DNA from: Acinetobacter sp. ANC 4169
GTDB lineage: Bacteria; Pseudomonadota; Gammaproteobacteria; Pseudomonadales; Moraxellaceae
DNA: 64,000 bases
Assembly: GCF_002135355.1 (NCBI RefSeq)
Contig: NZ_NEGE01000002.1
Location: forward strand, 186,001 to 250,000
Direction: 5' to 3'
Of the stretch, positions 11,568 through 13,193 are shown piece after piece. The first letter of the stretch is position 1, and each line of letters begins with the position of its first letter. The notes under the pieces are model-generated. The model was given only the letters and a program-made list of their open reading frames with translations. It was not told the DNA's origin and searched no databases. A program made the translations under genes and the position numbers.

Positions 11568-12629
11568 TTAAGCACTACGCTTTAAACTTTCGAGTCGCAG
11601 TGAATCAGTCATATTTAACAACAGTTGTTCGGTTTTTGTCCAGCCCAGACATCCATCCGTAACCGACTGACCGTAAACCATCTCCTCAGAAATTTTTTGC
11701 TGACCATCGACTATATGGCTTTCCAGCATTACCCCACGCACATTGGTCTGCAAGCGTTCTGCCACGATCTGTTGCAGCACTTCAGGTTGCAGCATTGGAT
11801 TTTTCGAGCTGTTGCCATGACTGCAATCAATTACCAGTGCCGGCAATTCAGCAGCATGCTTGGCTTTGATTTTTTCAATTTCTGACAACTGGTAGTTCGG
11901 GCCGCTATTCGAGCCACGCAGAATCAGATGCGCTTTTGGATTACCCTGAGACTCTAAAATACACGGTAATCCCGATTGGCCCAGACCCAGGAATTGATGG
12001 GGATGAGATGCAGATTGAATGGCATCCAGGGCAATTTGAATCGAGCCATCAGTGCCATTTTTGAAACCGATGCTGTATGGCATATGGCTTGAAATTTCAC
12101 GATGAATCTGGGATTCACTGGTACGTGCACCAATAGCACCCCATGCCAGTAAATCGTCGAAATAGGCCGTTGCCATTGGGCTTAATATTTCCGATGCTAT
12201 CGGCAAGCCCATTTCAATAATTTGTAAATATAACTCACGTGATTTTTCCAGGCCCAATTGCATATTGGAGGAGCCATCTAAATTTGGGTCATACAGGAAG
12301 CCTTTCCAGCCAACGGTGGTACGTGGTTTTTCAATATAGGCACGCATGACCAGGAAAATCTGGTCTGCTACTTGGCTTTGTAATTGTTGTAATTTCTGTG
12401 CATATTCAAGTGCAGAAGCTGGATCGTGAATGGAGCATGGGCCGGTCACGACCATTAAACGATGGTCTTTGCCATCTAAAATGTTTTCAATGGTTTGACG
12501 CTGATCGGCAATTTGTTGCGCCAGCTTGTTCGATAAAGGCAATTGTGCCTTCAATTGATGCGGCAAAGTTAAAATGGTTTCTTTTTCAGTTGTTTGAGTT
12601 TGTTGTAAAGCAGTATTCAAAGCATTCAT
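11568..12629 (-). CDS. aroG: DAHP synthase (class I alpha)
   Basis: 3-deoxy-7-phosphoheptulonate synthase: condenses phosphoenolpyruvate with erythrose 4-phosphate, the first committed step to Tyr, Phe and Trp. At 353 residues it has the full AroF/AroG/AroH length. Active-site blocks: GPCSIHD 63-69, KPRTTVGWKG 101-110, GARTSES 167-173, and metal-binding DCSHGNSSKN around 268-276. Which effector inhibits it cannot be read with certainty, so the symbol is provisional. AGGA lies about 7 bases before the ATG. Upstream lie two leader peptides rich in aromatic residues and an attenuator, so expression is very probably controlled by charged aromatic tRNA levels. A tyrB-like gene is its divergent neighbour. 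Confidence 0.95.
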   Translation of the reverse strand: MNALNTALQQTQTTEKETILTLPHQLKAQLPLSNKLAQQIADQRQTIENILDGKDHRLMVVTGPCSIHDPASALEYAQKLQQLQSQVADQIFLVMRAYIEKPRTTVGWKGFLYDPNLDGSSNMQLGLEKSRELYLQIIEMGLPIASEILSPMATAYFDDLLAWGAIGARTSESQIHREISSHMPYSIGFKNGTDGSIQIALDAIQSASHPHQFLGLGQSGLPCILESQGNPKAHLILRGSNSGPNYQLSEIEKIKAKHAAELPALVIDCSHGNSSKNPMLQPEVLQQIVAERLQTNVRGVMLESHIVDGQQKISEEMVYGQSVTDGCLGWTKTEQLLLNMTDSLRLESLKRSA

Positions 12630-12731
12630 TGGTCGTTCCTGGGGACTATTTTAGTCCAATCTTTTATTTGAGCGTTATGGGTCTAATGGATTGCGTGTGA
12701 AGAGTCATCAATTGACTAAAGTAAGACCAAT
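12628..12731 (-). promoter_or_regulatory. Long-range RNA pairing that can hide the aroG start
   Basis: In the minus-strand RNA, ATTGGTC (12725-12731, inside leader 2) pairs perfectly with GACCAAT (12628-12634), which includes the first two bases of the aroG ATG. TTTAGTC (12714-12720) pairs with GACTAAA (12650-12656). The aroG Shine-Dalgarno AGGA (12637-12640) is trapped between them. A competing local hairpin GGACTA-AAA-TAGTCC (12643-12657) uses the same GACTA bases. A ribosome stalled on the aromatic codons would cover the left arms, allow the local hairpin and expose the aroG start. The pairing is visible; the mechanism is inferred. Confidence 0.6.
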
Positions 12732-12768
12732 AAAAGTTGCTAAAGTATGAATAATTTAATGTTTGCAT
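12664..12768 (-). CDS. Second aromatic leader peptide of DAHP synthase gene, 34 aa
   Basis: A short ORF with GGAG eight bases before its ATG, ending 35 bases before the aroG start. Aromatic codons are packed at residues 6 (Tyr), 8 (Tyr), 9 (Phe), 12 (Phe), 13 (Tyr), 14 (Trp), 16 (Tyr) and 17 (Phe): eight of twelve positions. This composition is typical of attenuation leader peptides and very unlikely by chance. The Tyr13-Trp14-Ser15 codons (12725-12731) and Phe17-Ser18 codons (12714-12720) are complementary to the aroG ribosome-binding region, so stalling there should alter access to the aroG start. Read directly from sequence; no homologue known to me. Confidence 0.8.
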   Translation of the reverse strand: MQTLNYSYFSNFYWSYFSQLMTLHTQSIRPITLK

Positions 12769-12803
12769 GAGTAAACTCCAAAAAATGTAAGAAAAATAAG
12801 ATA

Positions 12804-12836
12804 TAAAAAAACCTGATCAGGTTTGCCGATCAGGTT
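12804..12836 (-). terminator. Attenuator terminator ahead of leader 2 and aroG
   Basis: Arms AACCTGATC (12828-12836) and GATCAGGTT (12810-12818) with a 9-base loop, followed on the minus strand by seven T residues. It lies downstream of the first leader peptide and upstream of the second, so it can stop transcription before aroG. The loop GGCAAACCT (12819-12827) is complementary, with one bulge, to AGGTTGCC (12849-12856), which gives an antiterminator pairing. Confidence 0.8.
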
Positions 12837-12847
12837 ATAAACTTGGT

Positions 12848-12896
12848 GGGCAACCTTTTCTTGCCCGAACGCGTTCAGGCAATTATCTAAATTGCC
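12848..12896 (-). promoter_or_regulatory. Mutually exclusive attenuator stems
   Basis: Minus-strand RNA segments: 1 GGCAATT (12890-12896), 2 AATTGCC (12878-12884), 3 GGGCAA (12861-12866), 4 TTGCCC (12848-12853). 1:2, 2:3 (with inner GAAC/GTTC pairing) and 3:4 are each possible but adjacent pairs exclude each other. Segment 1 coincides with the Trp-Gln-Phe codons of leader 1. Segment 4, extended to 12856, can also pair with the terminator loop. The order matches a trp-type attenuator with one extra stem. Confidence 0.65.
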
Positions 12897-12939
12897 AAAA
12901 ATAATAAGTTGCGTTTGAGATCATCGGTTGCTTTAACAT
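12883..12939 (-). CDS. First aromatic leader peptide of DAHP synthase gene, 18 aa
   Basis: Reads MLKQPMISNATYYFWQFR and stops. Five of the last seven residues are aromatic (Tyr12, Tyr13, Phe14, Trp15, Phe17), placed directly on the first arm of the stem cascade. This is the layout of pheL/trpL-type leaders. A ribosome waiting at the Tyr/Phe codons would mask segment 1, let 2:3 form and leave segment 4 free to block the terminator. A ribosome that reaches the stop codon would cover segment 2 and let 3:4 and the terminator form. The ribosome-binding site (GAAG) is weak. Function is inferred from composition and position. Confidence 0.75.
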   Translation of the reverse strand: MLKQPMISNATYYFWQFR

Positions 12940-12974
12940 CTTTATTTCTTCAAAAAAGTATGTGTCTTGAAATT

Positions 12975-13003
12975 AAAATACGCTGTATTGCCTTATTTGA
13001 CAA
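12975..13003 (-). promoter_or_regulatory. Sigma-70-type promoter for the aroG leader transcript
   Basis: On the minus strand TTGTCA (12998-13003) and TATTTT (12975-12980) are separated by exactly 17 bases, about 36 bases before the first leader ATG. Predicted transcription start near 12968. Confidence 0.6.
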
Positions 13004-13193
13004 TAGTTTTATTCAAAATAAAAATACATCAATCATTAAACTTTTACTTATCATTTGCGTATAAAAAATCCAGCAAGATAAAATTTAATCCATTTATGAA
13101 CATCATCAACATAGCTCACATCTTCAAGCTGCTATCCAGTGCTATGCTCATCGACCGGGTGCTTTTTCCAGCAAATTTCTGTTTATTTTTTTG

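Follow-up and report, generated by a model that had tools for sequence, protein, structure and literature searches.

What controls the type I DAHP synthase gene on the minus strand of this 64,000-nucleotide stretch of Acinetobacter sp. ANC 4169 DNA (the window), and how many aromatic leader peptides stand before it? The gene product matches Pfam DAHP_synth_1 (E 1.9e-71) and NCBIfam NF009395 (483 bits). Searches with the leader peptides against NCBIfam and Pfam returned nothing near a cut-off, and an Rfam scan of the window at gathering scores, taken down to E 5 for positions 12500-13050, returned nothing relevant. A preliminary description of this DNA had seen a single aromatic leader and a trp/phe-type attenuator upstream of the gene. 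That leader, ORF1, stands; a second aromatic leader, ORF2, had been missed, and ORF1 is the first half of a tandem (Table 1). Taken as a whole, the locus is likely, on comparative and predictive grounds, to be a two-stage aromatic sensor that controls one DAHP synthase.

Table 1. Features of the DAHP synthase locus in the window.
Feature	Position	Strand	Remarks
Promoter-like TTGTCA-17-TATTTT (-35 / -10)	13003-12975	minus	9/12 matches; kept in most of a 40-sequence alignment
ORF1, leader peptide MLKQPMISNATYYFWQFR, 18 codons	ATG 12939 to TAA 12883	minus	YYFWQF core; direct reading
Segment 1, GGCAATT	12896-12890	minus	within the ORF1 Trp-Gln-Phe codons; direct reading
Segment 2, AATTGCCTGAA	12884-12874	minus	partner is 1 or 3
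Segment 3, TTCGGGCAA	12869-12861	minus	partner is 2 or 4
Segment 4, GGTTGCCC	12855-12848	minus	partner is 3 or 5
Segment 5, AACCTGATCGGCAAACC, terminator 5' arm and loop	12836-12820	minus	partner is 4 or 6
Segment 6 and U tract, terminator 3' arm and seven T	12821-12805	minus	stem 5:6
ORF2 Shine-Dalgarno, GGAG	12779-12776	minus	direct reading
ORF2, second aromatic leader MQTLNYSYFSNFYWSYFSQLMTLHTQSIRPITLK	12768-12664	minus	...SYFSNFYWSYF...; direct reading; downstream of the terminator
ATTGGTC in the ORF2 Tyr-Trp-Ser codons	12731-12725	minus	complementary to GACCAAT at the aroG start; fold and duplex
Hairpin GGACTA-AAA-TAGTCC	12657-12643	minus	separates the ORF2 stop from the aroG Shine-Dalgarno
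aroG ribosome-binding site AGGAA and start	about 12640-12627	minus	includes GACCAAT (12634-12628), a possible pairing partner of ORF2
Type I DAHP synthase gene (aroG/aroF class), 353 aa	11568-12629	minus	Pfam, NCBIfam

Anatomy and conservation of the first leader

The preliminary description had recognized an 18-codon leader with five aromatic residues among its last seven, had placed the first arm of a chain of complementary segments (12890-12896) on its Trp-Gln-Phe codons, and had ended the chain in an intrinsic terminator (12810-12836) with seven T residues. Direct reading bears this out: ORF1 is as described, the GGCAATT of segment 1 pairs with AATTGCC at 12884-12878, and the terminator consists of an 11-pair stem (12836-12810) with seven T at 12811-12805. 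The coordinates given there hold overall to within one or two bases. Segment 4, which had been put at 12849-12856, is real but lies one base away, and its proposed pairing with the terminator loop (12819-12827) is found with the terminator 5' arm and loop, GGCAAACC (12827-12820). This helix contains one bulged A in the window, where most aligned relatives have GGCAACCC, and its covariation is not above that of shuffles. The earlier count of five segments has to be revised to six, the extra alternative helix being 2:3 (TTGCCTGAA:TTCGGGCAA, 9 bp). Transcription would be expected to start near 12968, from the promoter-like TTGTCA/TATTTT; promoter-like matches are no commoner in the region than in shuffles, their number lying within the shuffle mean.

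The aromatic content of ORF1 is weak evidence on its own (5 of 18 codons, binomial P 0.026), and the leader folds at -41 kcal/mol against a shuffle mean of -29.0 kcal/mol (z -3.16; better than 200 of 200 shuffles). It is conservation, rather than the single sequence, that excludes chance. The enzyme is present in all 175 genomes of the genus, and upstream DNA was gathered for 110 of these, which form the basis of the ORF1 and ORF2 counts. ORF1 occurs in 110/110 loci, with cores such as YYFWQF, YFYFWQF and YYFWQY, and its synonymous fraction is 0.359 in the coding frame compared with 0.102 and 0.112 in the other two; inspection of the alignment by eye revealed no strong Shine-Dalgarno sequence at ORF1. 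Thus the alignment of relatives proposed in the preliminary description finds the leader frame, aromatic codons, stems and terminator all kept across the genus. The segments were also folded one by one, as had been proposed: the medians for helices 1:2, 2:3, 3:4, 4:5 and 5:6, each taken alone, are -6.9, -11.0, -9.6, -12.5 and -14.7 kcal/mol, and all five are stable in each of the 102 scored loci (of the 110, two whose terminator escaped the pattern had already been set aside, and six of the remaining 108 were not parsed).

The compensatory stem changes proposed there as a check were found in part. Among 35 representatives the termination structure has 98.6% of its cells paired, compared with 17.7-49.5% when it is slid along the alignment, and compensatory changes occur in 2 of 19 pairs, both in stem 5:6, which has 100% of its cells paired and is followed by the T run. 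The antitermination structure is likewise kept (94.4% of cells paired, 25.3-55.7% when slid). Covariation in its helices, however, was not above shuffles, the score being reached by 185 of 500 in the same 35 representatives, because the segments are nearly invariant.

A covariance model of the element, R1, matched 169 of the 175 genomes of the genus under strict filters, at one locus each, and none of 173 genomes from 15 other genera of the family. Laxer filters left the same six genomes of the genus without a match; these contain only weak, paralogue-like DAHP synthase matches, and one of the genomes is 65% complete. No such leader was seen when 50 genomes of other genera in the family were searched and the upstream DNA of 30 loci inspected. 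The A. baumannii enzyme is 76.3% identical to that of the window, and the models of both elements find matches in two A. baumannii records. The records NZ_CP077849.1 and NZ_CP104448.1 (3.66 and 4.09 Mb) are labelled as A. baumannii plasmids, yet are of chromosome size.

Helices 1:2, 3:4 and 5:6 are mutually compatible and form a terminating set, and 2:3 and 4:5 are compatible and form a read-through set. When charged Tyr-, Phe- or Trp-tRNA is low a ribosome would stall on YYFWQF and cover segment 1; 2:3 and 4:5 would form, the terminator 5:6 would come too late and RNA polymerase would read through. A ribosome at the ORF1 stop would cover segments 1 and 2, allowing 3:4 and then 5:6 to form and transcription to end. 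Equilibrium folding with a masked ribosome was carried out on 34 loci (one of the 35 was skipped). Before the terminator arm is made, a stall at Trp lowers the mean probability of 3:4 from 0.15 to 0.04 and raises that of 4:5 from 0.71 to 0.92; with the ribosome at the ORF1 stop, 4:5 still averages 0.75. In the full-length leader the mean terminator probability is 0.93-0.97 whatever the state of the ribosome, and only L097 and L107 of the 34 fall below 0.5, on the Trp stall. On average, the equilibrium therefore favours the terminator in every state, and the switch would have to be kinetic, depending on the order of synthesis.

The enteric his leader is a six-segment attenuator in which 1:2, 3:4 and 5:6 alternate with 2:3 and 4:5. 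The first element has the same alternating helices, end-product codons in its leader peptide and an intrinsic terminator; it differs in its aromatic codons, its DAHP synthase target and the presence of a second leader ORF, and the likeness is one of wiring as generally known, not of sequences. Of the trp/phe-type attenuation originally proposed, the attenuator is thus upheld by conservation, and the wiring is better likened to his than to trp. Anatomy and conservation together make it very probable that the first stage is ribosome-mediated transcription attenuation before aroG, and the element would be, in its presumed function, a new member of a known attenuator class.

The second leader at the aroG start

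When the 1132 small ATG ORFs (10-45 codons) of the window are ranked by their most aromatic 10-residue stretch, ORF2 comes first. By eye it is found in 110/110 loci, and by script in 109/110, L033 having been missed by the pattern; together with 19 divergent loci it is present in all 129 examined of the 169 attenuator loci. Across 51 distinct sequences the synonymous fraction is 0.244 in frame compared with 0.121 and 0.130 out of frame, and a core resembling SYFSNxYWFYFSQ is widely kept in the genus. The ORF2 stop lies 32-45 nt from aroG (109 loci), and in 106 of the 109 a hairpin with a stem of at least 5 bp occupies the interval. This hairpin has a median z of -2.45 (z of -2 or lower in 76), a stem of equal length appears in a median of 10% of shuffles, and compensatory changes are seen in three of its five pairs.

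Thirteen loci of the genus (L145-L157) are divergent: their ORF2 has been rewritten, in some more than in others, and yet is still in place and aromatic. In five of them the gap before aroG was folded; four retain a hairpin with changed sequence, and L149, in which ORF2 stops 8 nt before aroG, is without one. Six further loci (L114, L117 and L141-L144) have an ORF2 with 7-11 aromatic residues and, in every case, a 25-nt overlap with the aroG start. The same six loci keep the attenuator in front of a DAHP synthase only 53-55% identical to that of the window, which looks like a swap of the enzyme gene with the leader left in place.

On a read-through RNA, a ribosome would read ORF2 as a second aromatic sensor. 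For many species, folding predicts that the aroG ribosome-binding site is paired with the aromatic codons around the Trp of ORF2; stalling of the ribosome there would free the aroG start, and free passage would let the RNA refold. Where ORF2 overlaps the aroG start, free passage would instead let ribosomes run across it. Both stages would then give more aroG expression when aromatic amino acids are scarce.

Folding is in part consistent with this scheme. The main pairing partner of the aroG start region is the group of ORF2 codons around Trp, and the opening codons of ORF2 come second. With a masked ribosome at the ORF2 Trp, the predicted accessibility of the aroG start goes up in 22 of 34 loci and down in four. 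With the ribosome at the ORF2 stop, however, it also goes up in 22 of 34, and down in eight (mean 0.39, compared with 0.35 for ribosome-free RNA), and nearly every mask position in the initial two thirds of ORF2 gives some gain, so that the Trp stall is no sharp switch. The ORF2 core forms duplexes of -9.2 kcal/mol with aroG starts as against -6.7 kcal/mol with 26 other gene starts of the window, although 16 of the 34 ORF2:aroG duplexes are weaker than -9 kcal/mol. A species-matched helix was not supported, since an ORF2 pairs better with its own aroG start in only 19 of 34 cases (P 0.28).

The conservation and composition of ORF2 argue that it is probably a translated second sensor, and on balance they favour a second stage in which its aromatic codons control aroG translation. 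The exact mechanism is more tentative: unmasking of the aroG start is rated the most likely one and may well not be correct.

The tandem in Pseudomonas and the Rfam family P15

A class-wide AroG search led to the same layout at a locus of another family, L188, and searches of the family, the order and named genomes extended it to Stutzerimonas, Pseudomonas and relatives; in Chromohalobacter the arrangement is a related one. The loci were scored for two strict DNA strings, one for each leader. Among the 80 distinct loci with an enzyme identity to L188 of 60% or more, 74 contain both, and the ORF2 string, considered alone, occurs in 76. L230, L234 and L250 have both leaders by inspection without both strict strings, L325 and L248 have ORF1 only, and L324 has neither leader. 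Of 49 loci with less than 60% identity, the 41 below 54% carry neither string. At 54-60% there are eight: one with both strings; one with the ORF1 string only, which is the window's own locus, its ORF2 having other letters; one with the ORF2 string only (L330, where inspection finds both leaders); and five with neither. Three of these five (L254-L256) have a different, single aromatic leader, WWFGYGFYFSQ. L213 and L216 likewise have one aromatic leader before a DAHP synthase, FYFWYYFPKP or FYRWYYFPKP. All five of these loci belong to other Gammaproteobacteria, and no ORF2 was seen in them. At L189 an ORF1-type leader with MYFYGYWFSRYGV and a terminator is followed, by eye, by a weakly aromatic ORF that ends at the ATG of the enzyme gene.

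In 63 distinct pattern-caught sequences the Pseudomonas attenuator pairs its GGGTATTGG codons with ATACCC, followed by a second hairpin and then a terminator. The second leader was examined in 74 distinct Pseudomonas-type rows, picked for a WRF peptide, 28 of which have an unusual start distance, many being misassigned by the script. All 74 read TGGCGATTT, often with CGCCA beside the aroG start; 58 of their 74 ORF2:aroG duplexes beat the shuffle mean and 19 fall in the best 5%. RNAalifold returned no structure for the Pseudomonas-type ORF2 region, the alignment of which is gappy. The CGA and TTT of TGG-CGA-TTT are identical in the 74 rows, which were picked for the peptide and not for its codons, and TGGCGATTTA is found in 76 of 80 unpicked Pseudomonas-type loci. 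Both codons are rare in these GC-rich genomes.

A further motif was noted inside ORF2 after TGGCGATTTA at L251, L252, L305-L308, L311-L313, L318-L322 and L330: CGKTCGG, 15 nt, a CCGNNCG-like element, 10 nt and GGTGGY. These spacings are constant, though the pattern allowed 8-18 and 3-20. The arrangement is compatible with an H-type pseudoknot, stem 1 of which covaries (CGGTCGG:CCGACCG and CGTTCGG:CCGAACG) and is mismatched in some loci. The pattern search found the motif in no Stutzerimonas locus and in 0 of 229 of a class-wide sample, which holds one genome of that family (G508).

The Pseudomonas first element coincides with an entry already in Rfam. RF00627, 'Pseudomonas sRNA P15', scores above its gathering threshold in seven of eight Pseudomonas-type loci, the eighth being that of Chromohalobacter. 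P15 has been proposed as a possible riboswitch in the pertinent part of PMC2527527, and that of PMC2375449 lists it among the sRNAs detected by Livny et al. Of 99 Pseudomonadaceae genomes, 70 have P15 (67 above the cut-off). A comparison by eye shows these to be the very genomes that have the isozyme (best E below 1e-120), and the 29 others to lack both. In 20/20 loci examined the enzyme starts 151-231 nt downstream of P15 on the same strand, and P15 contains the end of a leader ORF. Like the Acinetobacter first element, P15 sits before the orthologous enzyme, has leader codons in its first arm and shows the same order of hairpins; it differs in that Rfam lists it as an sRNA gene and in that the Acinetobacter sequence falls outside the family, the window, L001 and L155 giving no match to RF00627. 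Most simply, P15 would be the terminated leader of the DAHP synthase gene.

Alternative readings and related systems

It could be argued that only the first element regulates, and that ORF2 is a translated spacer which keeps a long leader covered by ribosomes and senses nothing. The first stage does have the clearest anatomy, and the complementarity between ORF2 and aroG is not species-specific, nor is the predicted effect of stalling sharp. Against this, ORF2 stays rich in aromatic residues where its sequence has been replaced, is kept in every one of the Acinetobacter loci examined and in most Pseudomonas-type loci, and remains close to the aroG start, and we regard this reading as unlikely, if credible. 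An improbable reading, too, is that ribosomes finishing ORF2 reinitiate at aroG, in which case a shortage of aromatic amino acids would lower aroG translation. The short interval with its hairpin, the six overlapping loci, the locus with only 8 nt between stop and start, and the gain in predicted accessibility when a ribosome sits at the ORF2 stop are all in keeping with such coupling; its sign, on the other hand, would oppose that of the first stage, and a 25-nt overlap is ill-suited to reinitiation.

ORF2 might instead be an arrest peptide which, like TnaC, senses a free aromatic amino acid through its own sequence. The widely kept SYFSNxYWFYFSQ-like core would suit this. The Pseudomonas-type ORF2s, however, have another core, WRF (a peptide required in picking those rows), and divergent Acinetobacter species keep aromatic richness only; a TnaC-type peptide was rejected and is very unlikely. 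The name under which P15 is catalogued raises the further reading that the first element is an independent, trans-acting small RNA. This too was rejected and seems highly improbable, given that P15 occurs only alongside the isozyme in the 99 genomes, lies just upstream of it and co-directional with it in 20/20 loci, and has the end of a leader ORF within it. A metabolite riboswitch was discarded as well, no aptamer-like conserved domain having been seen beyond the alternating segments and the ORFs. The reading we prefer remains that of two aromatic sensors in tandem.

Related arrangements before DAHP synthase genes have been predicted elsewhere. In Acholeplasma, the relevant part of PMC8632094 describes the uORFC-13-1 motif before aroF, made up of a terminator and a predicted leader ORF in which phenylalanine is encoded once or more; it also mentions an older attenuation hypothesis for E. 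coli aroF. The motif resembles the present element in combining a predicted leader ORF with a terminator before a DAHP synthase gene; in that part of the source one ORF is described, and the phylum is another. Attenuation is likewise predicted before the DAHP synthase-tyrA operons of Vibrio, with data from the Merino site (PMC1173090); the pertinent part of that paper mentions no second leader, and Acinetobacter is absent from the corresponding part of its Table 7. The nearest two-leader case found is ermB, which also has two leader peptides before one gene. It differs in being induced by erythromycin, and the portion of PMC8274638 that concerns it is titled translational attenuation and mentions no transcription-termination stage. 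Searches of open-access text returned no attenuator or leader peptide described before a DAHP synthase in Acinetobacter or Pseudomonas, and no tandem pair of amino-acid leaders of this type.

What would be new, then, is the tandem itself, with a second aromatic leader at the aroG start, common to Acinetobacter and Pseudomonas and with a function deduced from comparison. There is about an even chance that both genera share a conserved sensor with two checkpoints, in which the first leader decides whether the mRNA is finished and the second whether it is translated, P15 being what the first checkpoint yields. DAHP synthase is the point at which carbon is committed to the aromatic amino acids, and it is often targeted in engineering. 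If this view is correct, Pseudomonas and Acinetobacter would have a cis-acting control of the enzyme for which the open-access text searched holds no description, and the Rfam family P15, for which neither the Rfam listing nor the relevant parts of the papers state a role, would gain one. A single transcript would sense the same amino acids two times, first during its transcription and again during its translation.
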